A stretch of 64,000 nt of DNA from Tubulanus polymorphus. Lineage: Eukaryota > Nemertea > Palaeonemertea > Tubulaniformes > Tubulanidae. Position 1 is the stretch's first letter; the number at the start of each line of letters is the position of its first letter. The DNA is taken from contig NC_134036.1 in NCBI RefSeq assembly GCF_964204645.1, positions 3,830,001-3,894,000 of the forward strand. Direction: 5' to 3'. Shown here in pieces: positions 14,901-35,936 of this stretch. A model generated the notes under the pieces. The model was not told the origin of the DNA. It saw only the letters and a program-made list of their open reading frames with translations, and ran no database searches. The translations under genes and the position numbers were made by a program.

Positions 14901-17900
14901 AAAATTCTAACGACAGTCAGGCCTAGATCTGTCTTAATACTAGCGGACTACCGAAGCCTAAAAACAAGTCTACACGGAGCCATCCTTCGATCTCTCCACG
15001 GATACGTAACGATTCGCATATTCTCGGAGTCACCGTCAATCGGAAACATATGCTCAAATTGCCAATTTGTATTCCTAACTCTATTCGCTAAGCGTATGTT
15101 GTTATTGGATAAGTCATCGACATACCGGGCAATGATTATCCCAACTATAAGATGGCAAATTGAAATACTCACTGATTGGTTTCGTTGCCGAGTCCGAGTC
15201 GTCCGTCTGCCCCGATGCCCCAGGCGTGCACCTCTCCCTCGCTGCCGATAGTGACCACATGCTGCGGCCCGCACGCCACCGCTATCACATCAACGCTGAA
15301 ATGATAATTACCGAAAAAGTTTTACGCAACGTTTTTCCAGATGCATCTACACTGCGATGCGGCGTATAAATCGGCGATGGACTTAGCTAGTACGCCGCAT
15401 CGAGGTGTATTGACGTTATATTACTAATTAGATTTTCATATTTGGTAAAAGATGGCAGCGTCTGTCGAACATGGTAAAATGTTAGTAACTAACGATACAC
15501 GATACACCGCACCGCGGTGTAGACGCACTATAGCGTTATGTCCATCATGCATAAGACTGGGGTGGAATTTTTCAAAGTTTTCAATCATCCCCAGCACTTT
15601 ATGGTATTACTTAATTAGCAATGATAGGGTCAATGATATTCCGAATACTTAAACGACGTGGTTTCGTCAGTTTTACCTGAGTAGACACTCGATCAAACGC
15701 GGTCGAGATATCGGGGCGTAGTCGCCGTGTCCGAGACAACCGTTCAGACCGTCGCCGCACGTCATCACGATGCCGTTATCGCTGCTGAACACGCTGAAAC
15801 CGTCTCCGCAACACGCCCTGAAATCAGAAGAGAAACATCCGTGACGTCGTGAAATCATCGTTCTATTTTTCCATCCTTCTCGTTTGGTTTCTTCTTCATT
15901 TACAATCATGTACTCTTGATTTATGATGAATAATGAATGAATTTTTTTAAATATCCGAAACGTCACAATAACATAACATCATAATATAATATGAATCGGT
16001 GATTCAGCTGTCATGAGATTCTACTGCATATCTGTCTCACCGGTTTGGGAACTCGATGACATCGTGAAACTCAGCCGCATTCCTCCACCGCAGGGATTTG
16101 AACCTGATGACAGGGTAAGACTCCGCCACATTCTTCCTTTACAGGGATTCAAACCTAGTGGCATCGTAAGACTATGCCACGTCCTTCCTCACGGGGATTT
16201 GAAATCTGGTGGCATTGCGAGACTCGGCCACATACGTCCTTTACAGAGATTTAAACCCGATGACATTTTGAGACTCCGTCACATTACCTCCTGGCAGGAA
16301 TTCAAATCTGATGGCATCGCGAAACTCTGCAACGTTCCACCTTCCTTGCAGGGATTTGAACCTGATGGCATCGCGAGACTCTGCCACGTTCCTCCCTTGC
16401 AGGAATTCAAACGTGATGGCATTGTGAGACTCTGCAACGTTCCTTCCTCGCAGGGATTTGAACCCAACGGTATTGCGAAAACAACTTTATAAAAAAACTA
16501 GCAAAAACACTTACTTCGTGATCGACTTGCCCTTCAAAGCCTCGACGAGCGTCGGTGAAAGTTTCGAGTCGAGCGAGCCGTGCCCGAGTTGCCCGTAGCT
16601 TCCTTCGCCCCACGTGTACACCGACCGCTCTATCGTGACAACGATCACGTGATCGCTTCCGACGGCAACCTGTAAGCGAGCGCGCAAGTTAGGTGAACCG
16701 AACATTCAGTCAATCGAACGAATCGTCTCGATTAGAAAACTTCGTAAATCGAACAACGATGGCCGCCAGTCAGCCATCTTGACTACGATCATGAACATTT
16801 TTTGAACGCAGAAACGTTTGAATAAGGTATTTCAGTATAATTACGTATCCCATTTCAAAAGGGCTGCATTCGTTGTTAAGCAAGGCCAAAAAATACAGAC
16901 AATTGAAGCTTAATTTTGGTGTTATCTTCTATTTTTCACATAAGCTCGAAATATTTCAAAGCTATTATCAGCGTTGATAGAATATCGACACACACTCTGG
17001 TAGGGGCAGAAAGGGGTGTCCGCCCTCTAAAACCTTAGAACCCTGTAAATCTACATACCTCTCTTATTTTCGCTTTAGACGGCAGGTCGATCGGACTGAG
17101 ACCCATACTGCACGTTTCCAAATAATACAACACCGACCTTCAACGAAATAAACAATTTCGATAAACTTCAATAACATATATCTAGTAGAGGTAAGAATGG
17201 CAGAACAACTGGATGTAGACAGTAGCAATGATGACACACATGCAAGATATCTCTAAAAGACAATGCCCGCTGAAGCGGGAGCACGAGATATCTCTAAAAG
17301 GCAATGCCCGCTGAATCGGGAGCACGAGATATCTCTAAAAGGCAATGCCAGCTGAATCGGGAGCACGAGATATCTCTAAAAGGCAATGCCGGCAGAATCG
17401 AGAGCACGAGATATCTCTAAAAGACAATGCCCGCTGAATCGGGAGCACGAGATATCTCTAAAAGGCAATGCCAGCTGAATCGGGAGCACGAGATATCTCT
17501 AAAAGGCAATGCCGGCTGAATCGGGAGCACGAGATATCTCTAAAAGGCAATGCCGGCAGAATCGAGAGCACGAGATATCTCTAAAAGGCAATGCCCGCTG
17601 AATCAGGAACACGAGATATCTCTAAAAGGCAATGCCGGCTGAATCGGGAGCACGAGATATCTCTAAAAGGCAATGCCGGCAGAATCGAGAGCACGAGATA
17701 TCTCTAAAAGGCAATGCCCGCTGAATCAGGAACACGAGATATCTCTAAAAGGCAATGCCGGCTGAATCGGGAGCACGAGATATCTCTAAAAGGCAATGCC
17801 GGCTGAATCGGGAGCACGAGATATCTCTAGAAGGCAATGCCAGCTGAATCGGGAGGACGAGATATCTCTAGAAGGCAATGCCAGCTGAATCGGGAGGACG

Positions 17901-20900
17901 AGATATCTCTAAAAGGCAATGCTAGCTGAATCAGGAACACGAGATATCTCTAAAAGGCAATGCCGGCAGAATCGGAAGTACGAGATATCTCTAAAAGGCA
18001 ATGCCGGCAGAATCAGAAGTAGGAGATATCTCGTTGTAGCGACTGAGGTACGGGATATCTCTTCTTAACAAGGCAACGACGACAAAATCGAAATTACGAA
18101 ACATTCTTCGAAACGGACGACATCGACGGTTACCTTTTCTCCAAAACGTTAGGACTGAGTCGATAGAATGCGGCGCGAAAATGAAAAGAACGAAGGCACA
18201 CGATTAAAACGAGAGGAAATTCACGCGTAACACAGGAACATTGACAAGTTGGAAACATCGGATGCGGTTAAAATATACAGTGTATATGTATATACAATAT
18301 AATATGACGGAATAAATCATGTATAAAGTTTGTTTTCGGGTTTTTTAGGCACGTATTAGTTATTCAACGTCTACATAAATAGGAAATATCTGCCGGCGGG
18401 GATTCGAACGTGATGACGGTATCGCTGGACTCAGCCACGGTACGAAAACCTGCCACACCAGACCGCAGTGCGCAGATGTGCAGCTCGGATGATGTCATTA
18501 GCCGATCAGAAATCCTGTTTTATTCTAGCGCTGGTATTTTCATTCATAGTTTATCCGTGAAATTCGCCTCAGCCATTATACAATGGCCAATCTGATCGGC
18601 GCCACAAGTTTTCTTGCAGCAAACCTGGCATGTACTTATGCAAGCGGTCTAGTGTGGCAGGGTTTCGTGCTGTGGCTGAGTGCAGCGATGCCATCAGGTT
18701 CGTATATCCCTGCTGGGGGAGGATGCTTAGAGCATATGGGGAAGAGGAAAGGTCCGGTTTATCGGGGAATCAACAAGTCTTAGAGACCCTGATATAAAAT
18801 CTCGGAGGTCATTTTCAAGCGTTTGGGTGGGAATTTTCGGGCGGGTATTAGTTTTTCAACATCTAATAGGGAATATAGGGATGAGGAGAGGTCAACAAGT
18901 CTTAGAGACCCTGATATAAAATCTTGAAAGTCATTTTCAGGCGTTTGGGCGGGTATTTTCTAGTGGTTACTAGTTCTTCAACATCTAATAGGGAATATAG
19001 GGATGAGGAGAGGTCAACAAGTCTTAGAGACCCTGACATAAAATCTCGGAAGTCATTTTCAAGCGTTTGGGCGGGTATTTTCTAGTGGGTATTAGTTCTT
19101 CAACATCTAATAGGGAATATAGGGATGAGGAGAGGTCAACAAGTCTTAGAGACCCTGATATAAAATCTTGAAAGTCATTTTCAAGTGTTTTGGCGGGTAT
19201 TTTCTAGTGGGTATTAGTTCTTCAACATCTAATAGGGAATATAGGGAAGAGGTGAGGTCAACAAGTCTTAGGGACCCTGATATAAAATCTCGGAAGTCAT
19301 TTTCAAGCGTTTGGGCGGGTATTTTCTAGTGGGTATTAGTTCTTCAACATCTAATAGGGAATATAGGGATGAGGAGAGGTCAACAAGTCTTAGGGACCCT
19401 GATATAAAATCTCGGAGGTCATTTTCAAGCGTTTGGGTGGGAATTTTCGGGCGGGTATTAGTTTTTCAACATCTAATAGGGAATATAGGGATGAGGAGAG
19501 GTCAACAAGTCTTAGAGACCCTGATATAAAATCTTGAAAGTCATTTTCAGGCGTTTGGGCGGGTATTTTCTAGTGGTTACTAGTTCTTCAACATCTAATA
19601 GGGAATATAGGGATGAGGAGAGGTCAACAAGTCTTAGAGACCCTGACATAAAATCTCGGAAGTCATTTTCAAGCGTTTGGGCGGGTATTTTCTAGTGGGT
19701 ATTAGTTCTTCAACATCTAATAGGGAATATAGGGATGAGGAGAGGTCAACAAGTCTTAGAGACCCTGATATAAAATCTTGAAAGTCATTTTCAAGTGTTT
19801 TGGCGGGTATTTTCTAGTGGGTATTAGTTCTTCAACATCTAATAGGGAATATAGGGAAGAGGTGAGGTCAACAAGTCTTAGGGACCCTGATATAAAATCT
19901 CGGAAGTCATTTTCAAGCGTTTGGGCGGGTATTTTCTAGTGGGTATTAGTTCTTCAACATCTAATAGGGAATATAGGGATGAGGAGAGGTCAACAAGTCT
20001 TAGGGACCCTGATATAAAATCTCGGAAGTCATTTTCAAGCGTTTGGGCGGGTATTTTCTAGTGGGTATTAGTTCTTCAACATCTAATAGGGAATATAGGG
20101 ATGAGGAGAGGTCAACAAGTCTTAGAGACCCTGATATAAAATCTTGAAAGTCATTTTCAAGTGTTTTGGCGGGTATTTTCTAGTGGGTATTAGTTCTTCA
20201 ACATCTAATAGGGAATATAGGGATGAGGAGAGGTCAACAAGTCTTAGGGACCCTGATATAAAATCTCGGAAGTCATTTTCAAGCGTTTGGCCGGGAATTT
20301 TCGGGTGGGTATTAGTTCTTCAACATCTAATAGGGAATATAGGGAAGAGGAGAGGACCGGTTTATCGGGGACACAGCCGGGGGGGGGGGGGATCTATACC
20401 TATAGCTGGACAGAACGAAACGCGAGAAATGTCTGAAAAATAATAATCAGAAAAACGTAATACGCCGGAAATCTGTTGAAGCCTCACGTTGAGCGTCTAC
20501 AGAACTTCACCACCTAAGACATACTTTTTCATCTAGAATCATCCACGCTACAAATGTAATTCTTCCTGTGGACTCCTCCTAAATCGGTACTGTTTATCTC
20601 AGTGAACTCAGTTAATTCAGTGGTTTTGAAAGCAAATTTCTATCTACGTAAACTTCTAATTCGGTAACCGCCTAATTGGGTAAAAACCCGCTTTCAACCG
20701 TACCACCGATTTAGGCATAGTCTACTATACAACTACAAACTACGTAAAAAATTTCTAATTGCCTATTTCTCAATATTGAAGGAGTTTTAAAAGAGTTTCG
20801 GGCATTTTTCTCAAAATCAAAGGAGTTTCGAGCACCTTTTTTAAAAGCATTTTCCGTTTAGGAGATTTTAAGGAATCAAGCAGTCGTATAGGGAGCCCGC

Positions 20901-23900
20901 TTCGTTATGTCGAGTACGTACCTAGTTCGTTTACGACGGGTAGACGGCGCTAGTTGATTACCGTCGGTAATCGCGGGATCGTCCTCGTAATCGGTCGGCG
21001 GCTCTTCATATCTGCTCATCAACTAGAGAAAATAGAAAAATTGAATTTAAATTGTTTTAAAGATTTCTTTTTCTTGACTGCTCAACCCACTGAATGCAGT
21101 AGTAACAAAACCGCTCCAGCAGATAAATGGTTTGTTTTCCTGGTCGTCCTATGAAATGGGCCCTTATATTTGTTGGACAGGTTAGGTTCATTTTTTTACC
21201 TATCTATGTACATGTTGCAATACTGCAATATTGCACAGGCAGAGCAATAGAACAGAATGGCCACTTTACACTAATTGGGAGCCCTCTAGTAGAAGACCAT
21301 GACCACGATGGGGCCACTTTTCACCAATTTACAAATCCCCAGAATTTTCCCTCATTTTTCCATGCGATTACACACAGTTCCCCCTGAGTGAATCGGAGAA
21401 ATTTCCAGGCTTAAAATGTTACAATTCATTCATTTTTCATAAATCATGTAGTGATTAAGTAACACACGGTCAATAGCGTTATCCAAATTCCCTGAGTTTT
21501 CTAGGTTTTTGGTAAAATTTGTCGAAATCCCCGAGTTAACCCCTGATCTTTCTAGATTTTTCTGATCTCCTTTTCCCCTGACTATTCCCCGACATGCACG
21601 CGTTGTTTTCCCTGACTCGATCTGCTAAGAATCTGATCAATTACCACAATCAAATACGCGTGAGACATAGACAGAAACTGTTTTTACACACAATCTAGCA
21701 ATCTCAACAAATCTACCTATGACTTTTCCATGATTTTTAGCGTTTCACAAAATTTCACGACAATTCCCTGACCTTCTTTTTAAAAGAAAAGACAACTCCC
21801 TTAAAGAATTAAAAGACTTAAAGAATGAAATAAAAAATCCCGATTTTGCCAGGTAAGTGACCGCGCCCTGTTTTTGTTCAATTCGAAATATACGCAGTCA
21901 CTCGCCCGTAGAAAAGAAGACAATACGTATACATTTGGATAACCGGGTGACGGGTGATTAATGAGTCGTTGATAAGTAATTGATATTAACGCTCGCTCGC
22001 TGGCGCATGCAGCAGCAGCAGCAGCAGCAGCAGCGTCGTAGAGTAAACATCACCCGAGAACATATATCATCGCTACCAGGTTGATCCTCTAATTCATCAC
22101 GACCCTCGGATAACGAAGGCAAATCGATTCTGCTCGATAATTGCCCCCTAATAGTAACTTACCGGTAAATCATCTCGTCGAGCTTAAGGCTGAAAAAATG
22201 ATACCTTGTTTCTCCTAATCAGCCTGGTCATTTTTGTAAACTGCAATACAATTTGTAATCAGTTCAGTTCAATAGCTGCCCGGTTTGTTATTGTTAGCTT
22301 GTTCATGATTTTTTTTCAAAGTTATGTACAGGGTAGATAGGCGGTGGGCCGGGTCAACTTTTAAGCTCAGCAGAACTGAAATGAGAAGCAAGGTGTCAAG
22401 TTTCTTGCGAGCAACCCAACAGCCTTGCCCGGTTGTCTTCTTGAGAAATCGCAAGGACCATCTAATTTATACGGCATCACGCTTTCTCTAAGTTCGGAGC
22501 TTAATTTTAAAAGATCGACTAAGGAAGGGGAGAACCCCTGGTCTTCTTAAGTGTTGATGTGAAAAAACCGATATTCAATATTTGCTTATTTCATGGTGAA
22601 GGCTCAAGTGTCTTAAATGGACAGTGTGGCCATTTTCTGCCGATTTACAAATTCCATGAGTTTTGTCGGATTTTCTAAGTTATAACACAAAATTCCCCCT
22701 AAGTGAATCAGAAAAAGTTCTAGGTCAAAAATTTGACAATTTATTCATTTTTTATGAACCACGCATTAATAAACGAACGTATGGTCAATATTATCATCAG
22801 AATTCTCTCTGAGTTTTTCAGGTTTTTCAGTAAAATGTGTCAAATTCCCCGATTTGTCCGTGAAATTTTTTCTACATTTTTTCTAATTCAATGAGTTTTC
22901 CTCGAGTTTTCCTCTTAAACTCTCGACGCGAAAAAAAAACGTATATACAATATCGCCGTATTTTTCTGACGAGGATCAAGTATCTTCGGAAATGGTGCCG
23001 CCGCGATTGCACCCTTTACGATTGCACCTCTTGGTCCGATCGGAAATTCTGAATTTCGCGCGATAGGTCCTCTACACTTTCCGTAAGCGTAACAGGAAAC
23101 GCTCTACGAGAATGTCGAAAGCTTTGAAACCTCTCCAATCCGTCGACGAAAGAGAGCGCACGTACTATTACGACGGCGAAGAAGGAAAAGACGCTAAAAA
23201 AAAAATGTTTCCCTTCCATTATTCAAACGCACGCACACCTTTCATCGCGACGTTCACCGTCGCCGTGGTAACCGACCGTAAGCAGACGCGCGCTGCGCGG
23301 CGATCCAGGGACGAAGAGTTTTACCGACGAAAAGAAATCAACGCCAGTCGTTTGTTCGTTCGTTTGTTCATTCGTTCGTCGAGAGCTGCAACTAAATCAG
23401 GTAAGTGCGCTGTTTTGATTCAGAGTATTCTTAACTAACTCGTCAATATATCAATAGTTGCGTGTAGCCTGGAATCTGCACTCCCTATACGCAATTCAAT
23501 ACTTTATCAGCCCATTTTCAAGCCCCTGATTTTTCCATGAGATGACACAAAATTTGCTGATGAGTGAATCTGAGAAATTTCTAGGTTTTTTTAAAAATGT
23601 TGTTACGGTTCATTCATTTTTCATTGAATCATGTTTTCGGGGTTTTTGGAAAAATTTGTCTAATTCCCTGATTTTCCCTGTTTATCATTATGTTCAAACT
23701 TTTGATCGTCCACACTTCGCATGTGTCCAGGACTTCACCCGAGACATTTCTAATTGAAAATGAACTACTAACACCAGACATTCGACATTTTAGCAGCTCA
23801 CTTTCAATAACCGATTGCCCACAATTACAACAGTGAAAGTCTGAAGGGGGGTTCCAGGCTAAGAAATGATACCTGTATTTCACGAAGAGTAGCTCGTGCA

Positions 23901-26900
23901 AACCTGGGTACAGAGATGAATTAGTAAAAGAAATTTCTAGATCTTGCAAAATATCTAGAAAAGCAACTGGTATAGCACTGAAATAATGAGATATTTTGGA
24001 ATCAGTTTAAAGTGTCTTATCACAATTTTTAGTGTTGGAAATCGATTGTCTACAACCGACATATCTGAATCAACTGAGAGACACTGCACGCCAAGATGAA
24101 GTTCAGTTTAATGGCGTGTTGGGTGGTGGCGCTGCTGTCCGTAGGAGCCGCCAAAGACGACGGCGGATCGCGGAAATACCGCGCGCGACGCCAGGACGCG
24201 CTCGGAGAATTAGACGACGAGGTGCCCAACGATGACGGCCAGTGTAAACCGTGTCAGTGCATGCCGGGACCTGCGGGTAAGATCTCCGGACCGGTATTAC
24301 CGGACTACGGGCCCCGAGTTACGGTATTTACGGTATAATCTTTTCCTCAATTTTATAGGCGCGCCCGGTCCGATGGGTATGCCCGGAAACCACGGCAACA
24401 ATGGTAACAACGGAGCCCCGGGCCCGGCCGGGCCACAGGGCAAACCCGGTGAAAAGGGCGAAAAAGGCATGAAAGGTAGGCAAACGAGGAATCGGGTTCG
24501 GAGTCAAAATAAACATCCGCACAACTACGGAACTTGGTCCAGAAACAAATTAAATCTATACGACCGTGGAACTGGGTCCAGAGATAGATTTAACCCACAC
24601 TTCTGTGGAACTGGGTCCAGAGACCAATCAAACCCACACAACTGGGGAACTTGGTCCGCAGATAGATTAATCACACACGACTGTGGAACTGGATCCAGAG
24701 TCAAATCAAACCCACACAACTGTGGAACTGGATCCAGAGTCAAATTCAACCAACACAAATGTGGAACTGGATCCAGAGTCAAATCAAACCCACACGACTG
24801 TGTAACTGGATCCAGAGACAAATTCAACCAACACAAATGTGGAACTGGATCCAGAAATAGATTAATCACACACGACTGTGGAACTGGATCCAGAGCCCAA
24901 TCTAACAACACAAATGTGGAACTGGATTCAGTTTTAACCATAAACCGCTTAAACTAAGACCTGTCTCAGCTCATTTGAGTTCTATAACCAATCTAACAAC
25001 TTCAGACCATGATGTGAGACCACTTTTGAACCTTTAACCGCGCAATCAGCCTTCGATCTTTCGTTCGCAGGCAAAAAGGGACCGAAGGGCGACGCCGGCG
25101 AGGCGGCGCCGCGACCGACGAAGGTCGCGTTCTCCGTGCAGCGCAACTCGACGTTCGGCGGACTGACGTACGACTTCACGATCACGTTCGACCACGTCGT
25201 GACGAACGAGGGCGGCGCGTTCAGCTCGTACACGTCGTACGTGACGATACCGCGCGCCGGCACGTACGCGTTCTTCATCAACACAACTGGTAACAACGGC
25301 AACTCGCTCATCTGGCTGCTCGTTAACGGATCAAAGAAGGTACGTACACGTAAGACACGCGCGCTACTCGGAAAAATATATCACGGTGGCCACTTTTATT
25401 TGACTAGTTTTTCCCAGACTATTGCACTTTTATTTGACTAGTTTTTTCCCGACTATTGCACTTTTATTTGACTAGTTTTTCCCCGACTATTCCACTTTTA
25501 TTTGACTAGTTTAACCCCGACTATTCAACTTTAATTTGACTAGTTTTTCCCCCGACTATTGCACTTTTATTTGAATATTTTTTCCCTGACTTTTCCACTT
25601 TTATTTGACTCACTTTTCCCCGACATTTCCCTGGCATGCACGCGTTTGTTTTCCCTGACTTGATCTGCTTAGAATCCGATCAATTAACACAGTCACATAC
25701 GTATGACATAGACGGAAACTGTTCGATTTTACGCGCGATCTAGCGATTAATTTTCCCTGATTTTTAGCACTTTTACAAAATTCCCCGACCATGCATTTTA
25801 CAGAAAAGACATTTCCCTGACTTTATCCTGATTTCCAGGCAAGCGGCCACGCTGTAACAGGTTTTCATCAACTGTAGTATTTGCTCATTAACGTTCGAAT
25901 ATCGTTACTAGGTCATTTTCATTTATTTCTCCGATGATTAAGTTTATTCAAAACTTTGAAACTACCAGAAAATAACGTAATAACTGTTAAATCATATAGA
26001 TTGTGGATTTTGCTAATTTTTTCTATCCGTCTATCGCGCAGGCGTCGGTGTGGGCGTCGTCGAGCAAGTCGAACCCGTATCCGACGGCGAACAATCAGAT
26101 CATACTGATGCTGCAGCAGGACGACCGCGTGTGGCTGCAGCTGGCCGCCGGCAGCACGATGAACTTCGGCACCAGTCCGTCCGTGTTGACGTTCAACGGA
26201 TACATACTGTGGACTCTTGATTAGTACGCCGAGTCCACAGTATTCTAGATATTTCCGCTGGATCCAGTTCCGCAGTTCTGAGAACGACTAAAACTGTTTA
26301 ACTCAAGTCTGGTTTCATTAAATGCACGAGGCCCAGAATTGTACAAACGGGCGGGTTGCGCAGTTGGCGCTTAAGTCTTAAAGCGGTCTTAAATATCTCA
26401 AAACCAAAAGTTGTTCCATTGGCTATAGAACTAAGTTGGTCTTAGACCGGTCTTAAGTCTTAGCCGTGTCTATGCAACCAGGGGCCAGTTGCACAGTCGT
26501 GACTTAAGTCCAAAAGTGGTCTTAAATCTTAAGACTGGTCTAAAGTTGTTAGATTGGCTATAGATATAGAACAAAGTTGGTCTTAGACCGGTCTTCAGTC
26601 TAAGCCGTGACTATGCAACCGGGTTCCGTAGAACTTTGCGAGTTGAGTTCGAATTAAAATCAGTTGATTTTCAACGAGTAAAATCGGCGTCAAATCTCAG
26701 AACTGTAGAACTGGGTCGAGCAGCGTTATAAAATAACTGTCTCTTTATATGCTAATGTAACTAATTATCCTAATTGACTATTTTGTGATTTGCGACTGTT
26801 TTGTGCCTATACATTCTAAAAATGTTGTTCATCTACAGGGCATATATCCCGTTCGGGAAGTTCCTGCTAAATATGATTCTTTAGCCGATATCTTATAAAA

Positions 26901-29900
26901 TTAGGACAGTTACCGTTAAATAACGCATACGATCTATTCTAATCAACCGATGCCCGAGTCTAAACTATGCATTTTTTTCTATAACCAACCTAACAATTCT
27001 CGGAACATACTACAAGCATTTAGATTTACTAATTACTTTGAGGGCCAGCCTGAGCTGATAATTGTTCGATAGTCTTAACGTTGGTCTTAGGATTTTCGAA
27101 GACCATTTCTATGTAATATATATATATATATATATATACCGTATATATAACCAGTTGTAGCTTTGTTTCTTCCTTTCATCGATTATATAACGAAACATTT
27201 TAGGGACATTTTTTCCTACCCACCTACGTATATTTTGCACTCTTTTTTAACTTAATAAATAAAACTACTGATCGAAAAAAAAAAGTTTTTTTCTATCGAC
27301 TCAACATTTTTCTCTGTAGTGCTTATCAGTTCAGTGCTGCTGACTAAGCGTAATTAATACTTGAAAGTGCTGGAGATTATTTGAAAACTTTAAGAAAAAT
27401 TCCACGGCAGTACGTTGTATAACGGGTGTACCACTTTAATGTCTATTTCAACCTGACTTGAGAGCATTCCGGGTGGCCTAGCTCGGTCTGTTTTGGTTGT
27501 ACATACCTGATAGAAGTCTTATTAGGAACAGAAAGCACTGGCAGCTGACCTAAAATATCGTTTTTGAATCCACTTTAAACTGTATTGAAGGATATCCAAA
27601 AAGTCTTTATTGAGAGGGGTTCCTGAGAGAAAAGAGACTCCATGATTTGAAAGTTTAACAATATGTCTCCATGCCTACCAACTGAAGTTTGGTACGTAGG
27701 CATGGACACATACTGTTAAACCTGCAAATCATGGAGTCACTTCTTTTCATTTAACCCCTTTCAGTGAAGACTTTTTGGATATCCTTCAATACAGTTTCAA
27801 ATGGATTAAAAAATGATGATTTAGGTCGACTGCCAGTCCTTTCCGGTCCTATTAAGACCTTTATCAGGTGTGTAGTACCAAAAATTAGCGAGCTAGGCCA
27901 CCCGGAATGCTCTCAAGTCAGGTTGAAATAGACATTAGTACATCTACACCTAACATCAATACACCGTGATGCGGTGTACGTACTACCTAATGAATAGAGA
28001 ATTAAAACGCAAAGGATCTCTGCGCCTACCTCCGGCAAGCGATGGTACATGAGCTCGTGGGCGGACGGACGATAGACGGGATCTTTCTGCAGCATGTCTC
28101 GAATTAAATCCTTTATCTCCTGCGAGTAGACGTCTTTCACCGGCGCGAACGAACCCTGGCAGAAGAGAAACATCGACGCAATTTAAATACCGACGATCGT
28201 GAATTTCCCCTTCTCAAATACTACAAGAGGTAGGAACTGAGAACAGGTAGCATGAGTTTGTACCACGGTGGTGTCTCGTGATGCTATCAAATTCCAGCGA
28301 GGGAGGAATGTGGCAGAGTCTCGCGATGCAATTAGGTTCGAATCCCCGCGAGGGAGGAACGTGGCTAAGTCTCACAATGCTATCAGGCTCGAATCCCTGC
28401 AAGGGAGGAACATGGCAGAGTCTCACGATGCCATCAGGTTCAAATCCCTGCAAGGGAGGAACATGGCAGAGTCTCACGATGCCATCAGGTTCAAATCCCT
28501 GCAAGGGAGGAACATGGCAGAGTCTCGCGATGCCATCAGGTTCAAATCCCTGCGAGGGAGGAATGTGGCAGAGTCTCGCGATGTCATCAGATTCTAATCA
28601 TTGAGAGGATGGAACGTAGCAGAGTCTAGCCCGATCACTGACCTTCATGATTTTGTTGACTAGAGCGGGAAGATTCGAACCTTCAAACGTTTTCTGTAGA
28701 CACGCCATCTCGTATAGGATACACCCTAGAGCCCATATATCCGACTTGTCGTTGTACGGTTTGCCTTCGCACTGAATTCGAAAAAAAATACAACAAATCT
28801 ATGGTTATAATCAATAATATATCAATAATAATAATAAATCCTATTTCCATATGGCGCATATTCTGAAAAATAAAGATTCATTTCGCTTAACGACGTAAAA
28901 CATTTTGGATTTGTTAGAATTCCTCGATAAAAATAATTCTAGCAAAAACTCGTTTTCGTACCAGATCGAAAAATGGAATCGATTGGACCGCCGCAGTTAT
29001 TCTTGCGAGAGGAATTCCGTAAAAAAAGGCAAAGGGGCAAAGGCATCCTCGCTTGCCAGGGTTTGTTTGTCTCCTGCTGAAGCTCTAGATTTCTTGGACG
29101 GACGGGTTGCCAGTCTATATTTCTAGCCAATCAGAGATGCGCGGTATTAATAGAGCAAATGTGTTGAAGAAAAACAACACATCGGATTGGCTAGATATTT
29201 AGACCCAATAAATCATGGACGGTTACACCACTAAGGAACTGCGACCAGGGTTTGTGTAGACGTGAGCTTCGGCGGAAGGCAATCAAACCCTGGTAAGTGA
29301 GGATAGAGCAAAGGTCGAAATAGAGATATTATCATCGTTAATCAAACTCACCATTTCGGGGCTGATGTAGTACGGCGTACCGAGCACGGTGTTCGCGCCG
29401 CGGTTTACCGTGGTCATCATTTTCGAAATTCCGAAATCGCCCATTTTCACGACGCCCTCCTTCGTCAGGAAAACGTTTGCCGTTTTCAAGTCCCTGAACG
29501 AGATAACGAACGTAACAATTTGTAATTTGTGGTTGGCTTCTATCCCATAACAGGGGTCCAGATACATCCTAACAATCGGCTTTCAACACATTTTTCACAA
29601 GTAAAAAAAAAAATACCACATTTGTAAACATTTTTTCACATAATTTTTCAAGACTTTTCACATTGTTTCGCATAAAATTTCAAGATTTCACACAGATCAA
29701 TATTTCCAGATTCTCAATTTTTTTCGTATTATTTTTCACGTCGGTACAGGTACAATAACACAAGCAGTTACCGACCACAATCTGGACGGATCGAAATACG
29801 TAAGCTTTAACACGGCATGTGTATGAATTCTCAACTCGACAGTATATGGCATGAAAAACAACTGAAACATCGAAAGAGCTTTCTCTAAAAGATTTTCACG

Positions 29901-32900
29901 CAATTTCATCAGTTTTCGTTTACACAGATCACTCTTCCCCGGAATTTTTAAAAGGACAAAAAATTCCCCAAATTTTCCTCGATTTCCAGATTAGTGCCCC
30001 ACGCCGTAAAGATCGTAAAAGAAATGAAACTCCGACCTGTGCAGGATGTTGTGTTCGTGTATGTGTCGTATCGCGGCGACCATCTGCTGAAACATCGACA
30101 AAATCTGTTTCTCTTCGAGCGGTTTGTCTTGAGCTTGCTGCGCCAGGAATTGACACAACGTCCTACACGCAAATAATGAAAAAGCGAAATACAGTCAGGG
30201 TTATAAGATAAAATCCCACTATTTACAGATTAAAAGAATTTAAAAACCAGAATTTATTTATTAAATCTAAAATATTTAAAAGACACGACGTTTCGATCTC
30301 ACCCTAGAGATCATTGTCAGGTGTGTCACACCTGACGATGATCTCTAGGGTGAGATATTTTAGATTTAATAAATAAATTCTGGTTTTTAAATTCATTTAA
30401 TCTGTAAATAGTGGGATTTTATCTTATTATCCGTTCACCACGTTTGAGTGTGGTCATCGTTCTACAGTCAGGGTTCTTATCGAGTCAGTTTTTCCCTATT
30501 GTTTTTACAGATCAGAGGATCCAAAACCCCAGGGGGTTGGTTGCATAGCAATGGCTTATATTTAAAACCAGTCTAAGACCAATTTAGTTAAACAGCCAAT
30601 CTGACAACTTAAGACCAGTCTTGCGCGCAACCGAGCCTGATGACCCAGCTGAAAATTCTCTGATAGAATTATGAGATAACCACAGCCAGGGCTGTTTCTA
30701 CTTGAGCGGTTCCTCGTGCCACTCATCACCAGCAAGAACATCAAGATGACAAAATTTCAAATTACCCGACACTCCCCTTATTTTCAACGAAAGATTCAAA
30801 TTCCCTACTTTACCCAGCAGAATGTTTTGTAAGAAGGCTGGACCCAGTTCCACAATTCTGAGATAAGATTCGACCCAAAGTAAACACATTGAAAATGAAC
30901 TAATTTGTCACTCGACTGACAAAACTGTGGCGCTGGATCCCCTTTATAGTTTCATACTAAAAAACAACATCGTAATTTGATGCAATAGAAATGAGCAGGG
31001 GATGGGGGAGAGGGCGAGTACGTACCCGCCGTCGGCGTATTCCATCTCGATCATCAAAACTCCGTCCTCCTCGAAACTGTCGTAATAACTGATGATATTC
31101 GGGTGATCGAGCAAAGCGAGAACTTTCACCTGAAAAAACAAAAAAAAAATGTCAGAATTCCTAAATTTCCACACAAAGAAACAAAGAACTAAATGTCTTA
31201 TGTCTGGTGTTTGTAGTTCATTTTCAATTAAAAATGTCTCAGGTGAAACTCTGAACACATGAGAAGTGTGGACAATCAGTTTTTCGAAGTGTGCTGATAA
31301 AATGTCTAATGTCCGGTGCGTGAAGTTTATTTTCACTCAAAAATGTCTCAAGTGAAGTTCTAGACACATGTGAAGTGTGGACGATCTGTTTTTGAAAGTT
31401 TGCTGATAAAATATCTAATGTTTGTAGTTCATTTTCAATTGAAAATGTCTCAGGTGAAGCACTGAACACATGTGAAATGTGGACGATCAGAAATTCTAAG
31501 TATGGTGATAAAGTAGTGAATATCCGAGGGTCCAGACAGCAGCCTGAACCATCATCTAACCACTCGCCGACCACGCACTCATCACTCACCTCGTTCAGCG
31601 CGAGTTGCCGTTCGTTGGCGTTCAACTCATGCATGTTGATCTCTTTCAGAATCACCAGCGAGTCGTCGTCTTTCTTGCGGTAGAGCACGGCGGCGCCGTA
31701 CGCGCCCTTACCGACCGTGCGGATCTTCTCGAACCCGGCCAGCGACTGCTGGTATCGTCCGCTCCAGCCGCGCAGCTGAGTCAAATGGAAATATAACTCG
31801 CCGACGTTTCTGAAATAATAAAGTAACCCTCTGATATCTCAGTGTAAGCTAACAGGGTTCCTACAGATCGAAGATTCCTGGATACAACGAAATTTTAGGG
31901 AGAGAATTTCAAACTCAAGCAATTTTAAAAGCATTTCATAAGTTCAAAAGCATTTCATAAGGAATCTAGCAGTCGTAGGGTCCACGATGAAGCCATCCTT
32001 TGATGTCTCTGTGAATGTTAACAGGGTCCCTACAAATCGATCATTTCTGGATATAAGGAGATTTTAAGGAGAGAATTTCAAACTCAAGCACCTTTAAAAG
32101 CATTTCATAAGTTTTCTAAGGAATCTAGCAGTTGTAGGGACCCCGATGAAGCCATCCTTTGATGTCTCTGTGAATGTTAACACGGTCCCTACAGATCGAT
32201 TATTTCTGGACATAAGGAGATTTTAAGGAGAGAATTTCGAGTTCAAACATTTTTAAAAGCACTTTGTTTAAAAGCTTTTTTAAGGAATCTAGCAGTTGTA
32301 GGGACCCTGATGGAGCCATCGTTTGATATTTCCCTGTACTTAAAAGAGTTTTTACTAACATTTTTTTCGCAGCGTCAGCAGACGCGTCGTCGTGTTTGAT
32401 GCTGATTTCCGGGCCGTGCACGTCTTTAGAGATGTTCACCGGAATCTACAATGTGTAAATATATCCAATTATATATCCATTCAAAATTCATCATAATTCA
32501 TCAAATTCCCAAAAATCTCGAAACAAAAATATTTTTATAAAAATTCGTAAACATAAGTTTTCCCAATTTGCCAGCAGAACTGTGCAAATCACATAGTAGC
32601 GACACCTGGTGGATCCTCACTTTCCACGAAGGGAATCCACCGGATCCGGTGCGGAATCAAATCTAACCGACAAGACTACAATGCGAAGACTACGACTTAC
32701 GTTAAGGCGCGATTCAAGTTCACGACAGATGGCGCTGCTGTCGGTCGTTTGGGCGACCGAACTGGCGAGGAAATCCACGCGTTTACTGGTCGACGACGGG
32801 TCGACGTGGTCTTTTACGAGGGACGCGAGGAAATCGATCAACGTCGAGTTGTCTTTGATCGTGTCTTTCGAGATTATCTGAAATAAGATGAAAATATTTT

Positions 32901-35900
32901 CGCTGAAAATCTGGTGGGACGGAACTATTGTAAAACTTCCCTTAATGAACACCATTTGCCCGTTCCCAAAATGTTCCTATCTAAAATACATGGATCAGTA
33001 CCTCTTTATAGTGAACAGTCAAGAAGGTTCATTTGACCTCCCAATAGTAAACAGCTTTGTTTATAGTTGTGGATTTATAGGAGGATTCTAGTGTCACTCA
33101 CATCCATGACCTGACCCTGCTTATAGCGAACACCTCAGACAGTGAACACTTTTTGCTTGGTCCCACAGACGTTTACCATACCCCCTAGCTTACCCTCTTT
33201 AATCTGTTTTAGCGTGTAACCGTTTCTATGTCGATTTTCCTTCAGTTTGTATCACCTTTGATTTAACTTAAATTATTCTCTTTGTTTCTGGATTGTATAT
33301 TGACTCATAATTTCTGTTGTAACTCAGTATTCCTGAAGATGACTATTAGGATATAGTCGAAACGTTGAATAAACGACTCTCCGGTAACATTTTCGGACTG
33401 CTGTTCGTTATTATTGTGGGATTCTCTCTACATCACCATAGAGGGTTTATTTACCGTGTAGCAGTCGGTAGAATATCAGAACTTTCAATGACAAATATAC
33501 TTATAAAAACAACTTATAAAAAGACTCTTTCCAAAACTATAAGAACCTGAAGCAGTCCTTCCCGGAGACCCAAGGCGACAGAGCGAGACTTAACTTGCCC
33601 TCTCCCCCGACGAGCGAGAGACATTACCTGGTCGTCCTTGCCGGAGAGATGTATCGCGTGATTCGTGCCGTGTACGATGAACGCGATGCTGTGAACTTTT
33701 TTCGCAGGCGACGGCGACGAGGTCGAGTCGAGTTTCTTTCCGGCGCCGCTTGATGACAACGCTAGACTAACGGCCGCTGAAACATGAGATAAATATTGAG
33801 AATTATTACTAGGCCTAACTGATTATAATTTTACTGAGAAATTTTACTCATTTGGTCACTTATGCATTTACGCATGAACAGTGGCAACTTTAATTTTACT
33901 TCTTCCCTGACTATTGCGGAAATGCACCTTGTTTTCCCTGACTTGATCTGCTTCCAATATTCCAAGATTCCAATCAATTGTCAAATACATAAATGGAAAC
34001 TATTCGATTGTACGCGCAATCTAGCAAATTCCCCTAAATTATCGCGGATTTTCAGCTTTTTACAAAATTTCCTACCTTTCCTTAAAGAAAAGGAACTTCT
34101 CTGTCTTTTCCTTGATTTTTAGCTTTTATATTACAAAATTCCCTGAAATTTTTAACGAAAAGAAAATTCCCCGACTTTCCCCCCGCCCCACCCCCCCCGA
34201 TTTCCATAAGCCAGCGACCACCCTAAACATACCTCGAATACTCTCCAGCGACGAACTCTCGTATTTATACTGCACGTGGGCGACGTTCGGCAACAGAGCC
34301 GCGTAAATCGCCGTCAAATTCTTAACCTTCGACGAGATAACCACCAACCGCGGATCCGCGTCGGAGTCCGCAACCGCCGACGTCTGCTGATCGGCGGCGC
34401 CGGCGTTAGTTTCGACCGCCGATCCGGCCAGTTCGGCGACCGGCTCGACGTCGACGACCGGCATCTCGGGCACGATGACCTCGACGCCGGTGTCGTCGTC
34501 GAAGAACGCGCGCGACGACAGTTTCATCTTCGACTGAACGATGAACGACGTGCACGTACGCAACGGCCGGTAGATCTTCAGACGACGCGCGCGCGACGCC
34601 GCCGCCACCGGCGACGACTCGCGATCGCCGCACACCGCGTTAGACGTCTCGACGCGCGCGTTTTTACGACTGTTCTGACGAGACGGCGCCGGTTTGCCCG
34701 ACGCGCCGCTGCCGGGCGGCACTTCGGTAAGGGGATCGTTGCTGTTTTGTCGTCTGCAAAAAAGGGAAACAAGATCAATAATCATCCAGGACCAAGTTCC
34801 ACAGTCGTCAGTTAGAGTTAACTCTGAGTTAAAGTTAGTTCATTTTCAATGAGTTAGTCTAACCCAGAGTCAGATCTTAACTCAGAAATGTGGAACTGGA
34901 CCCAGGGTGAACACTCTCATGTGGCTTTTCCCTCCTGAATATTCCCTGACAAGCACGTAGATTTCCCTGACTTGATCTGCTAAGAATCCAATCAATTAAC
35001 ACAGTCAAGAAGACGTAGACTGTTTGAGTTGCTGCGCGATCTAGCATTCTCAGTAAATTTAGGCCTACGTGATTTTTTGCAAAATTCCCAATTCCCTGAC
35101 TTTTCGAAGAAAAGAAAATTCCCCGACTATTCCCGGATTTCCAGGTTAGTGGCCAACATGTTATCGCTCAGTGGCCTGTACTGGGGTTAATGACGGATTC
35201 AAGGCGGGGAAGATGAAGTGTTCTGGTCATTTGAATAATTCAGCATAAGAATTTATGCCGATTCTGAGTTACCCATGATTTGTAACGAAAATTTTGATTA
35301 GGCCTAAAATTCCTAAAAATTGTCTCAAAACGCCCAAGACTTCCTAGGGTAAGACCCTCATCAGAGCCTTCAACCCACTCTCCTGAAATAATCAAAAATC
35401 ATCAACTCTCATTTCCTTCCCCTTCGTTTCTTCATTTCCCTTTCGTTTGTTCCCTGGGTGCTTGCGACAGCGGCCTAAAGGCTTTGCTTGGCCCACACTG
35501 AAAGCTAGTGTCCTCTCTCTTTTTATAATTGTGCTTTTTTAAAAAAAAAAATTGTGAATTTTATTGCTTGTTTTCTCTCAACCTGTGTACATAGCCCGTA
35601 ATGCTTTCTGTGAAATAAATTTGAACTTGAACTTGAACTTGAACAACCGCTGGCTTGCTCGGCTTTATTTACGCCTTGGCTTCGTTTAGGCACCTCTTAT
35701 GGCGCGAATATGAACTCTACATAAAATTGCCCCCCCCCCATTAAACTGTGATAATCATGTGGCTCTCAGAATTTCGAGGATATATCTTCATCCGAGACGT
35801 AACTGGATTACCTCGTTGTATGTTTGTGCCCACGACGAGTGATGTCTTCATCTTTCCATTTTTCGTGATCTTCGGTTGTTGTTTCGGATTTGTGTTTAAC

Positions 35901-35936
35901 GACGTTGCTTCGAGAAGTAAGCTCTGCATCGTCCAT
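6000..35936 (-). CDS. NEK9: NEK9/Niki-type NimA-related kinase with RCC1 repeats and an extra N-terminal domain (29 coding exons)
   Basis: Serine/threonine kinase of the NEK9 (Nercc1)/fly Niki type, a cytoplasmic and mitotic kinase. Exons in transcript order: 35936-35812, 34753-34233, 33776-33628, 32877-32701, 32445-32360, 31809-31590, 31129-31026, 30162-30037, 29493-29352, 28771-28643, 28155-28030, 21022-20922, 18154-18134, 17137-17059, 16669-16515, 15817-15677, 15295-15173, 14693-14507, 13948-13730, 13096-12895, 12368-12207, 11837-11735, 11623-11492, 10447-10297, 9295-9175, 8347-8194, 7847-7664, 7047-6823, 6179-6000. Every junction is GT-AG and all phases agree, giving 4545 nt, 1514 aa and a TGA stop. 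Order: DUF4347-like domain about 176-365, kinase 379-635, RCC1 repeats about 676-1030, low-complexity tail, coiled coil 1381-1455, TQT 1491-1493, CIIQ end. The ATG at 35936 follows an acceptor at 35940, so a 5' non-coding exon probably lies upstream. The exon 21/22 junction has an alternative (donor after 12203, acceptor before 11834) that changes one residue. Family assignment rests on kinase motifs plus [13 protein letters not shown], close to fly Niki. Confidence 0.93.
6182..6222. repeat. (GAAT)n microsatellite
   Basis: About eight GAAT units directly after the acceptor of the last kinase-gene exon. Confidence 0.95.
6235..6770. repeat. About 60-bp minisatellite in intron 28 of the kinase gene
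   Basis: About nine units with GAGAATGAGAAGGTCGTC and AATTTTACTGAATCGTTGAA. The same unit recurs in intron 26 (7905-8190). Confidence 0.93.
7905..8190. repeat. About 60-bp minisatellite in intron 26 of the kinase gene
   Basis: About five units of the array type seen at 6235-6770, ending just before the donor of exon 26. Confidence 0.93.
8370..8710. repeat. About 110-bp dispersed/tandem repeat, family H
   Basis: Three to four degenerate units with AGGTGAAGCACTGAACAC and GGTGTTTGTAGTTCATTTT. Other copies: 23690-23830, 31195-31505, 41890-42180, 48230-48300, 52480-52560, 54115-54590, 55790-56105, in either orientation. Confidence 0.85.
8774..9141. mobile_element. MITE-like element family B, interrupted by family C
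   Basis: Begins TTAACCCTTTCAG and ends in the ACACCGCACTGCGGTGTAG block typical of family B. A complete family C element (about 8805-8921) sits inside it. Confidence 0.65.
8805..8921. mobile_element. Family C palindromic element
   Basis: About 115 bp with inverted ends GGACCCAGTTCCACAGTTCC / CTCTGGAACCGGATCC and a self-complementary middle (GAGTTAAAA, TTAACAGGGAGTTAAC). Other copies: 14082-14192, 26622-26719, 30840-30940, 34788-34905; fragment near 5040-5110. Confidence 0.75.
9353..9462. mobile_element. Family D palindromic element, diverged copy
   Basis: Resembles the element at 10942-11070 (GGTTAAAGATAACCGGCGGATAAAT, ending AGCTACTGGCCCC when read in two pieces), in intron 24 of the kinase gene. 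Confidence 0.6.
10530..10700. repeat. Dispersed repeat shared with 54950-55130
   Basis: Shares CTCGACCGCCGATC, TACTTCGATTTCCGATTTCA and AAATAACGGGG blocks with 54950-55130 in the same orientation. No function evident. Confidence 0.7.
10942..11070. mobile_element. Family D palindromic MITE-like element
   Basis: About 129 bp, ends GGGGCCAGTTGCTCAAAAGT / CTTTCGAGCAACTGGCCCC, flanked on both sides by AG. It interrupts a family F repeat (10740-11400). Confidence 0.75.
12401..12802. repeat. Dispersed repeat family F
   Basis: Begins AGGGTCCCTACA and ends AAGTCGTATAGAGACCC, with AGGAGTTTTAAAGGAG and CTAATTGCCT inside. Other copies: 10740-11400, 20480-20901, 31856-31982, 32032-32126, 32187-32304, 48873-49254, 51076-51665, 57600-57825. 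The inverted GGGTCCC / GGGACCC ends suggest a non-autonomous DNA transposon. Confidence 0.7.
13185..13680. repeat. 41-bp minisatellite in intron 19 of the kinase gene
   Basis: About 12 units of GACTGTTCCTGACAATCAGG plus GGACAGTAAACTATTTCCAAA. The same unit forms a second array at 59935-60500. Confidence 0.96.
14082..14192. mobile_element. Family C palindromic element
   Basis: Ends GGGTCCAGTTCCACAGTTCC / CACAACTGTGGAACTGGGTC, intact inverted ends, in intron 18 of the kinase gene. Confidence 0.8.
16060..16490. repeat. 51-bp minisatellite with a tRNA B-box-like core, intron 15
   Basis: About eight degenerate units with GCAGGGATTTGAACCTGATGG and GCGAGACTCTGCCACGTTCC. Read on the minus strand the core GGTTCAAATCCC fits a Pol III box B. 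The same unit, opposite orientation, is at 28268-28625. Confidence 0.9.
17244..18060. repeat. 41-bp minisatellite in intron 13 of the kinase gene
   Basis: About 20 units of GAGATATCTCTAAAAGGCAA plus TGCCGGCTGAATCGGGAGCAC. GAGATATCTC is a perfect palindrome repeated every 41 bp. It fills most of the intron next to the 21-nt exon. Confidence 0.97.
18134..18154 (-). other. 21-nt microexon of the NEK9-type gene (exon 13)
   Basis: Encodes the core of SPNVLEK between the linker exon (20922-21022) and the first RCC1 exon (17059-17137). It is bounded by an AG acceptor (GACTCAG) and a good donor (AAAAG followed by GTAACC). Its phases (1 base, 6 codons, 2 bases) are exactly those needed to join exon 12 (2 bases left over) to exon 14 (1 base completing). 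Without it the join of exons 12 and 14 also stays in frame, so it could be an optional 7-residue cassette. There is no homology support because linkers diverge fast. Confidence 0.65.
18393..18722. mobile_element. Foldback element with tRNA B-box-like ends, family N
   Basis: Ends GGGGATTCGAACGTGATGAC and GATGCCATCAGGTTCGTATA are approximate inverted repeats; inner arms CCTGCCACACCAGACCGC / GCGGTCTAGTGTGGCAGG are a closer match. A second copy is at 51930-52240. Confidence 0.7.
18771..20360. repeat. 122-bp satellite-like array with a 610-bp higher-order repeat, intron 12
   Basis: Thirteen 122-bp units (CAACAAGTCTTAGAGACCC, TCATTTTCAAGCGTTTGGGC, CATCTAATAGGGAATATAGG). Diagnostic variants (GGTGGGAATTTTCGGGCGGG, GTGGTTACTAGTTC, GAAGAGGTGAGG) recur in the same order after exactly five units, so 18801-19410 and 19411-20020 are near-identical blocks. 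The array ends in a G-run near 20381. Confidence 0.96.
21290..21870. repeat. Dispersed repeat family G
   Basis: Starts near GGCCACTTTTCACCAATTTA, continues with AATTCATTCATTTTTCAT, then TTTTCCCTGACTCGATCTGC and ends near CAGGTAAGTGACCGC. Related pieces: 9890-10150, 22620-22910, 23500-23690, 25600-25860, 33880-34215, 34915-35160, 58375-58630 (inverted), 61960-62210. No coding capacity seen. Confidence 0.7.
22008..22034. repeat. (CAG)n trinucleotide repeat
   Basis: About eight to nine CAG units in a non-coding part of intron 11. Confidence 0.95.
22200..22398. mobile_element. MITE-like element, family A
   Basis: Ends ATACCTTGTTTCTCC / GAGAAGCAAGGTGT with the GGGCCGGGTCAACTTTTAAG block; same layout as the 2354 copy. 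Confidence 0.75.
24096..26224 (+). CDS. Secreted collagen-like C1q-domain protein (4 exons), nested in an intron of the kinase gene
   Basis: Exons 24096-24276, 24359-24475, 25071-25339 and 26042-26224 join in frame to 750 nt (249 aa, TAG stop). The protein starts with a signal peptide ([19 protein letters not shown]), followed by a basic RKYRARR stretch (possible processing site), an acidic segment and a CKPCQC cluster that could cross-link chains. About 18 Gly-X-Y triplets run from residue 58 to 111 ([13 protein letters not shown] to GDAGEA), then a C1q domain spans 116-249 ([37 protein letters not shown], ending [10 protein letters not shown]). Such proteins trimerise and act as secreted recognition or adhesion molecules; invertebrate members are often immune lectins. 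A possible 5' non-coding exon ends at the GTAAGT donor at 23401, with an acceptor near 24031. Intron 2 carries a 36-bp minisatellite. The gene lies opposite and inside intron 11 (21023-28029) of the kinase gene. The specific family member is not recognised. Confidence 0.94.
24500..24945. repeat. About 36-bp minisatellite in intron 2 of the C1q gene
   Basis: About 12 units with GTGGAACTGGATCCAGAG and CAACCCACACAA-type blocks. The unit GGAACTGGGTCC resembles the end of family C elements, so the array may have grown from one. Confidence 0.93.
25385..25620. repeat. About 34-bp tandem repeat in intron 3 of the C1q gene
   Basis: Seven or so units of CACTTTTATTTGACTAGTTT plus TTCCCCGACTATTG, leading straight into a family G copy; probably an internal expansion of that repeat. 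Confidence 0.85.
26481..26621. mobile_element. Family E palindromic element
   Basis: Begins GGGGCCAGTTGCACAGTCGT and ends AGCCGTGACTATGCAACCGGG, with TTAAGTC / GACTTAA pairs inside. A similar block precedes it (26325-26480). Other copies: 30532-30640, 51373-51524, fragment 62518-62590. Confidence 0.7.
27254..27263 (+). promoter_or_regulatory. Probable polyadenylation signals of the C1q gene
   Basis: Two overlapping AATAAA hexamers (27254 and 27258) lie about 1 kb after the C1q stop codon, on its strand. They are the best hexamers noticed there. Confidence 0.45.
27439..27936. mobile_element. About 500-bp foldback (long inverted repeat)
   Basis: Left arm starts AATGTCTATTTCAACCTGAC and right arm ends GTCAGGTTGAAATAGACATT. 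Pairing continues inward through GAGAGCATTCCGGGTGGCCT and GAAGGATATCCAAAAAGTCT to a centre near 27690. It sits inside a family B element (27320-27990) with TA-type flanks. Fragments related to its arms occur near 14279-14470. Confidence 0.85.
28268..28625. repeat. 51-bp minisatellite with a tRNA B-box-like core, intron 10
   Basis: Seven units with GAACATGGCAGAGTCTCACG and GCCATCAGGTTCAAATCCCT, exact 51-bp spacing (28411, 28462). Same unit as 16060-16490 in the opposite orientation. Confidence 0.95.
29043..29310. mobile_element. Foldback with CATCCTCGCTTGCCAGGGTT ends, family I
   Basis: Ends CATCCTCGCTTGCCAGGGTT and AACCCTGGTAAGTGAGGAT are inverted copies. A shorter, better-preserved copy is at 48353-48470, and a single arm lies near 40572-40590. 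Confidence 0.75.
30203..30428. mobile_element. Near-perfect inverted repeat with a CTGACGATGA...GAAACG motif
   Basis: Arms of about 110 bp: GATAAAATCCCACTATTTAC on the left and its complement GTAAATAGTGGGATTTTATC on the right. Inside, CTGACAATGATCTC...GAGATCGAAACGTC (minus strand) is the same kind of motif as at 33329 and 53291. Confidence 0.85.
31770..34354 (-). other. DUF4347-like domain encoded by exons 2-6 of the NEK9-type gene
   Basis: Residues about 176-365 match, by eye, the layout of Pfam DUF4347, known mainly from large bacterial surface proteins: an opening beta-alpha unit ([20 protein letters not shown]) ending in SSSLESI, a hydrophobic strand into His-Gly ([18 protein letters not shown]), a second strand into a small-residue motif ([11 protein letters not shown]), then a helix and an NISKDVHG segment before VGELYF. 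The His-Gly is retained; the position where many DUF4347 members carry Cys reads Ser-Ser. Four introns (phases 1, 0, 0, 2) interrupt the region and the reading frame runs straight into the kinase, so this is not a contaminating or adjacent bacterial gene. The assignment is pattern recognition only; a divergent caspase-like or CHAT-like fold is the main alternative. Confidence 0.55.
33329..33440 (+). repeat. Single copy of the CTGAAGATGA...GTCGAAACGTTG repeat, family J
   Basis: Reads CTGAAGATGACTATTAGGAT, then ATAGTCGAAACGTTG and a downstream block with TTATTATTGTGGGATTCTCT. The inner stem GACTAT/ATAGTC is perfect. Confidence 0.7.
34788..34905. mobile_element. Family C palindromic element
   Basis: Ends GGACCAAGTTCCACAGTCGT / AATGTGGAACTGGACCC, just upstream of exon 2 of the kinase gene. 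Confidence 0.75.

Follow-up and report, generated by a model that had tools for sequence, protein, structure and literature searches.

The window analysed here, a stretch of 64,000 nucleotides from the nemertean Tubulanus polymorphus (assembly GCF_964204645.1, contig NC_134036.1, positions 3,830,001 to 3,894,000 of the forward strand), contains on its minus strand a gene encoding a NEK protein kinase in which a DUF4347 domain (PF14252) stands ahead of the kinase domain. RCC1 repeats and a probable coiled coil follow in the same chain, which ends in a CaaX box. The fusion is common to many animals, from corals to sharks, and to 'Opistho-2', and is not private to Tubulanus. Taking into account the evidence for and against, the gene probably, though with considerable room for doubt, belongs to an old class within the NEK8/9 group with the architecture DUF4347-kinase-RCC1-coiled coil-CaaX, whose products would be anchored to membranes and would dock partners.

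Gene and protein model

The gene was spliced by hand from a genome of 268 Mb assembled in 77 contigs. It consists of 28 exons, with all introns of the GT-AG type, and a single reading frame leads from the ATG at 35936 to the stop codon at 6000, giving a protein of 1509 amino acids; this start codon, and any sequence 5' of it, are putative. The parts follow one another as a low-complexity start, the DUF4347 domain, the NEK kinase, the RCC1 repeats, a charged stretch and the CaaX end:

6000..35936, minus strand: the whole DUF4347-NEK kinase-RCC1-coiled coil-CaaX gene, stop codon at 6002-6000 (hand-spliced)
34357..35936, minus strand: residues 1-174, of low complexity, at the N-terminus, encoded by exon 1 and the greater part of exon 2 (translation)
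31767..34356, minus strand: DUF4347 domain, residues 175-367 (Pfam, profile-profile comparison, relatives, predicted fold of the Owenia relative)
34753-34233 (part), 33776-33628, 32877-32701, 32445-32360 and 31809-31590 (part), minus strand: exons encoding the DUF4347 domain
34330..34350, minus strand: first strand of the domain, RLVVISS (R177-S183; translation)
33628..33776, minus strand: exon with the His-Gly motif FIVHG (H251, G252; translation)
32701..32877, minus strand: exon with the conserved residue 300 and with S304 at the position of the family Cys (translation, family alignment)
28039..31733, minus strand: NEK protein kinase domain, residues 379-632 (PF00069, E 1.7e-63; motifs in the translation)
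12895..17137, minus strand: RCC1-like repeat region, seven exons (PF00415, E 3.8e-59; PF25390, E 5.7e-63)
6015..7047, minus strand: last two exons, with a charged stretch, probably a coiled coil, and the tail (by eye from the sequence)
6003..6014, minus strand: C-terminal CaaX box CIIQ, protein end ESKVCIIQ (translation)

The first-pass annotation of this DNA had placed a DUF4347-like domain at 31770..34354, divided over five exons and spliced in frame to an intact NEK kinase. The boundaries found here run from D175 (34356) to about G367 (31767), taking in exons 3-5 entirely and exons 2 and 6 in part, with the described landmarks present, and hand-splicing upholds the in-frame join. All the catalytic motifs of the kinase domain were found in the translation, so that this domain is intact, and hmmscan with Pfam-A gave no match in the extension formed by residues 1-174. 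The product is 98% identical to the public T. polymorphus Nek8-like model P0001 over 93% of residues 370-960. A 33-base exon (20432-20400) included in the first splice draft was rejected as spurious, since the exons flanking it are directly joined in P0001 and in the proteins of Owenia, Lingula and Nematostella.

Identity of the domain ahead of the kinase

When the domain was isolated (205 amino acids) and compared with Pfam-A by hmmscan, DUF4347 was the sole family obtained (E 4.4e-6, 27.0 bits, for a cut-off of 24.6), and PF14252 also matches, on their own account, the domains of 21 of 31 relatives at E <= 0.01, the best of them at 2e-11. The profile built from these 31 relatives, which does not include the Tubulanus row, was aligned by hhalign with 79 bacterial DUF4347 sequences (80 loci were kept and one was dropped as too short; they were gathered with a single query and hence are no fair sample of all DUF4347). 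The two profiles are colinear over 137-159 columns, with a probability of 97-98% and a score of 69-71. In the controls the maximum was 17.2 among 60 column-shuffled bacterial alignments and 12.1 with the reversed one, compared with 70.9 for the real alignment, which rules out a chance similarity. The likeness to DUF4347 that had been proposed is borne out by profile-profile comparison and, for the isolated domain, by the family model, at an identity of 14% between this family and the bacterial one in the profile alignment. Among the rows of the domain tree, the highest identity to the Tubulanus domain is 42%.

The structural comparison that had been suggested gave a divided outcome. The predicted fold of the domain of the Owenia relative may be counted as support for DUF4347. 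Foldseek on its own gave no match at E <= 0.001; its two lowest E-values belonged to GDSL lipase-like chains, 9qpe_G came third, and the peptidase folds were tied with unrelated Rossmann-like ones. A sequence search of the PDB with the Tubulanus domain alone led to three weak matches (best E 0.29), which were taken as chance. The six-frame search of the Tubulanus genome with PF14252 found nothing, as one would expect when the domain is divided over five exons; the control genomes also yielded none, so that no absence is shown by it.

Spread of the architecture across animals

Relatives were collected with the kinase and RCC1 part of the protein; the 7981 candidates sharing most words with it were scored, 3090 proteins reached E <= 1e-10 and the best 120 were examined. 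These 120 proteins, and the 107 aligned rows used below, include closely related species and isoforms, and counts over them are not independent events. An automatic PF14252 label was already present on 14 of the 120. The start of the kinase could be located in 116 of the 120, to which the domain count is limited, and a whole or partial DUF4347 was found in 111 of them, no match being weaker than E 1.3e-4 when 117 sequences were searched. Domain and kinase lie in one chain in these database proteins.

Among the best 120, the named protostome and acoel rows belong to annelids, a brachiopod, molluscs, an acoel, flatworms, a priapulid, chelicerates and crustaceans; the deuterostomes are represented by hemichordates, echinoderms, amphioxus, tunicates, sharks, rays and a chimaera, and the cnidarians by corals, a sea anemone and jellyfish. 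To these must be added 'Opistho-2', which we take to be a unicellular holozoan. The molluscs, annelids, cnidarians and amphioxus for which a survey had been recommended are therefore all present. No bony vertebrate, insect or nematode appears among the named rows, some rows being nameless; the many cartilaginous fishes, together with the absence of any named bony vertebrate from these best 120, suggest a possible loss in bony vertebrates.

In the kinase-RCC1 tree the main animal groups are gathered, several deep forks being unresolved, and Opistho-2 falls outside the 40 animal rows (99/96 and 100/98; 91/89 and 90/91 in a smaller tree). The domain tree separates the NEK and ECT2L domains from 14 of the 79 bacterial sequences with a split of 100/100, and there Opistho-2 is the first NEK branch (91/85 and 89/92). 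The simplest reading is that kinase and DUF4347 have been joined since before animals, and this distribution is in keeping with the old fusion argued for from the sequence of the window.

Place in the NEK8/9 group

The presence of a NEK kinase with its catalytic motifs followed by RCC1 repeats (PF00069, PF00415) places the gene in the NEK8/9 group, whose members share this arrangement; what sets the Tubulanus kinase apart from them is the DUF4347 ahead of the kinase and the CaaX end. With NEK9 it would also have in common the C-terminal coiled coil, reported for NEK9 in the available part of PMC5716973 and probable here.

The gene is not NEK8. A separate Tubulanus NEK8 exists in the same genome (G000:C2, spliced from L013, 718 amino acids), with the kinase at its very start and no CaaX end, and in the tree the two NEK8 rows are split from the remaining 42 at 100/100. 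In the hand-spliced NEK8 gene, the intron L013:3629-3724 starts with ATATCC and ends with AC, like introns of the AT-AC (U12) type. Among the own-genome matches listed, only this gene and NEK8 show a NEK-like kinase adjoining RCC1 repeats. A PDB search with the kinase alone returned NEK1, NEK2 and NEK7, and neither NEK8 nor NEK9 was in the best 60 of 261 rows.

As for NEK9, with which the gene (as NEK9/Niki) had first been equated, a provisional copy of the human sequence was used and the tree was rooted on NEK8 by choice. Under these conditions human NEK9 is located outside all class members, Opistho-2 included, on a very long branch (99/96; 91/89 in the smaller tree). In approximately unbiased (AU) tests, its union with the cartilaginous fishes is borderline rejected (p 0.045) and a position inside the animals is not rejected (p 0.10). 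These results are weak because the branch is very long and the human sequence provisional. The membership in the NEK8/9 group stands, with its kinase and RCC1 repeats, and the more precise name does not follow from these data; vertebrate NEK9 may be an orthologue that has evolved fast, or else a distinct gene. An apical-organ gene of Nematostella labelled NEK9/RCC1 in the accessible part of PMC4300403 may or may not belong to the DUF4347-NEK class.

The His/Cys pair

In bacterial DUF4347 the motif [ST]HG is present in 71 of 79 sequences and [LVI][YWFL]GC in 68; this His-Gly and Gly-Cys pair is typical of the bacterial members sampled and lies outside Pfam's definition of the family. As had been noted from the sequence, the Tubulanus domain conserves His-Gly (H251, G252) and carries Ser304 in place of the Cys. 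It therefore lacks the bacterial motif pair, and also the Cys that, together with a His, forms the catalytic pair of the clan CD cysteine peptidases (CHAT, caspase, C11).

In the NEK class, including the Tubulanus row, the His is found in 57 of 107 rows and the Cys in 63, both residues being present in 33 and neither in 20 (two of these gapped at one place), while His and Gly occur as a pair in 28. Other positions barely vary: D300 is conserved in 105 rows and Y359 in all 107, and the position of R177 is occupied by R in 98. This erosion of the bacterial pair, next to such constancy elsewhere in a fold that the relatives conserve, is consistent with a fold retained for binding and not for catalysis, the likeliest role of DUF4347 in this kinase being that of a binding or regulatory module, as far as sequence conservation can tell. 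To our knowledge, no activity has been shown for any DUF4347.

The CaaX tail

The first-pass annotation made no mention of the CIIQ box at the C-terminus. Proteins farnesylated on a CaaX box end in Cys-aliphatic-aliphatic-X, where X is M, S or Q. By this rule CIIQ would qualify as a farnesylation site, and the tails of the class can be read as putative farnesyl-type boxes. A Cys occupies position -4 in 104 of the 120 database proteins (P0001, which is the same gene, included), and in those 104 tails the last residue is Q in 50, M in 39, S in 14 and N in 1; every one of them has V, I, L or M at a2, and a1 is mixed and not always aliphatic. Other cysteines are rare in the last 60 residues of the relatives. 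The Opistho-2 tail, CTLM, is also a CaaX box. No report of a prenylated NEK was found in the open-access literature.

ECT2L and other settings of DUF4347

The NEK-domain profile also matches ECT2L (PDB 11xu, chain A1, residues 289-455, E 1.5e-14), and this segment gives 61.1 bits with PF14252 (E 1.4e-16), above the 27.0 bits of the kinase's own domain. With the NEK profile, ECT2L reaches 60.7 bits as against 35.2 for the best of the 79 bacterial sequences, so that ECT2L is the nearer of the two to this profile. In 11xu the His aligns with Asp, and Cys is lacking at the corresponding position. ECT2L shares DUF4347 with the Tubulanus kinase and differs from it in having a RhoGEF where the class has kinase and RCC1. 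An ECT2L-like gene exists in the same genome: DUF4347-like exons at G000:C1:25740420-25740979 (best E 1.1e-4) are followed downstream by RhoGEF exons, and both sets would form a single ECT2L gene. According to the available part of PMC4199137, the motile cilia of the zebrafish ear and Kupffer's vesicle depend on ect2l, and its loss shortens those of kidney tubules.

With bacterial DUF4347 the Tubulanus domain shares colinearity with the family profile and the conserved His-Gly, and it differs in the Ser that replaces the Cys, in the low profile identity given above and in its location inside a kinase protein. Hcp3-Tce1 of Pseudomonas aeruginosa (PDB 9qpe), known here by name from the structure matches, is a secreted protein of a bacterial secretion system with 12% identity.

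Proposed mechanism and alternative explanations

The simplest picture would be a membrane-held, paired kinase with a partner-docking front domain. The C-terminal Cys would be farnesylated, holding the kinase at the membrane; the coiled coil may pair the chains and the RCC1 repeats may restrain the kinase, both by analogy with what is reported for NEK9 (PMC5716973, in its available part); and DUF4347, located upstream of the kinase N-lobe, would act as a binding or regulatory module that docks a partner or substrate. Kinship with the NEK8/9 group and with ECT2L suggests a ciliary or centrosomal location.

Several results weigh against this interpretation. In the whole draft protein PF14252 obtains 20.6 bits (E 4.1e-4), under the curated cut-off, and the domains of 10 of the 31 relatives fall short of E 0.01. 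A word-based phmmer search of 5.8 billion proteins with the Tubulanus domain gave 0 matches at E <= 0.01 among 2337 candidates, the 31-row alignment gave 0 at the same threshold among 1729 candidates of similar length from those 5.8 billion, and the profile of the 79 bacterial sequences misses the Tubulanus domain directly (none at E <= 10). No domain match was obtained in 5 of the 116 proteins, and 16 of the 120 have no CaaX cysteine. The 33 rows with both His and Cys make catalysis possible in some lineages. In the AlphaFold prediction of an 892-residue ostracod relative, with three domains, the predicted template modelling score (pTM) is 0.48 and a hinge of low confidence occupies residues 195-201, so that the model lends no support to DUF4347 being rigidly docked against the kinase. 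Finally, the public model P0001 starts within exon 6 and therefore has no exons 1-5.

This last point would favour that the DUF4347 exons form a separate gene, or an alternative isoform, the principal kinase product beginning only after exon 5. P0001, however, is without two elements of the kinase, its glycine loop and its lysine, for which exon 6 has the codons in frame immediately 5' of the P0001 start, and the absence of the glycine loop led to P0001 being taken as truncated, its start without DUF4347 being probably an annotation error; moreover, the database proteins of the relatives join domain and kinase in one chain, so that this explanation is highly improbable. It might also be thought that, where both His and Cys persist (Owenia, Lingula, Limulus, sea urchins and sharks are examples), DUF4347 works as a cysteine peptidase, at all times or under certain conditions, and that it has decayed elsewhere, as in Tubulanus. 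Nevertheless, one or other residue is absent in 74 of the 107 rows, the rows bearing both span several phyla beside rows without them, the His-Gly pair is scarce and the peptidase folds are no better matched than Rossmann-like ones, all of which makes a peptidase improbable. The binding or regulatory role had already been proposed in the first-pass annotation; the erosion of the pair speaks for it as the likeliest role of the domain. Within it, an in-cis regulator of the adjoining kinase, autoinhibitory or activating, would account for a domain present in nearly all the proteins tested and for its short, fairly constant distance to the glycine loop (23-26 residues in 81 of 107 rows), but the flexible hinge and the low pTM define no packing, and in ECT2L the domain stands beside a RhoGEF and not a kinase; a mainly in-cis role is thus considered unlikely when set against partner docking.

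A further explanation, compatible with the preferred reading of a membrane-anchored, partner-docking class, is that the gene is the invertebrate orthologue of NEK9 and that bony vertebrate NEK9 lost both DUF4347 and CaaX. No other NEK9 candidate is left among the own-genome matches listed, and human NEK9 falls on the class side of the tree, though the rooting on NEK8 was chosen. Against it stand the position of human NEK9 outside the whole class, even of Opistho-2, and the borderline AU rejection of its union with the cartilaginous fishes, both of them weak results; a place inside the animals is not rejected. On balance, the orthology is a plausible proposal that falls somewhat short of an even chance. 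A broader scenario would have a whole NEK class that arose before the animals and disappeared from bony vertebrates. A farnesyl group would tether it to membranes, a retired DUF4347 domain would steer it, and together with ECT2L, which has this domain too, it would connect NEK signalling at membranes with Rho signalling in motile cilia. This scenario is speculative and, taken as a whole, unlikely.

Other features of the window

A gene for a collagen-like, probably C1q-type secreted protein, with Gly-X-Y repeats and a C1q-like end (by eye), is located at 24096-26199 on the plus strand, antisense to the kinase gene and inside its large intron between 28030 and 21022. Upstream of the kinase gene, the adjoining divergent gene at 37482-39072 (plus strand) shows leucine-rich repeats and an acidic tail and appears, by eye, to be RanGAP1-like. 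Long minisatellites with units of 57, 41, 122 and 51 bp (88-94% matches) occupy 3494-4683, 17245-18032, 18770-20355 and 28287-28627, the first downstream of the kinase gene and the other three in its introns. A minisatellite unit of 41 bp, almost the same at both places, forms arrays at 13209-13681 (a kinase intron) and 59953-60467, 46 kb apart, as a dispersed tandem repeat. Foldback-like inverted repeats seen by eye in introns at 27420-27960 and 30230-30420 are possibly remains of small mobile elements. A scan of the 64-kb window with Rfam at gathering thresholds gave no match.

Significance

No description of the DUF4347-NEK-RCC1-CaaX architecture was found in the portions of the open-access literature available. 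NEK kinases have been described with the kinase domain at the N-terminus, the rare exceptions all being from Tetrahymena (Parker 2007, PMC2031824, in the part available), and the widely conserved class presented here carries a CaaX box and, ahead of the kinase, a domain whose family is known mainly from bacteria. The CaaX box, if true, would make it a membrane-bound NEK, and the class bears on the origin of vertebrate NEK9. DUF4347, a domain of unknown function, gains two conserved settings in animals, this kinase and ECT2L, and its function can be tested in Nematostella, sea urchin and Ciona.

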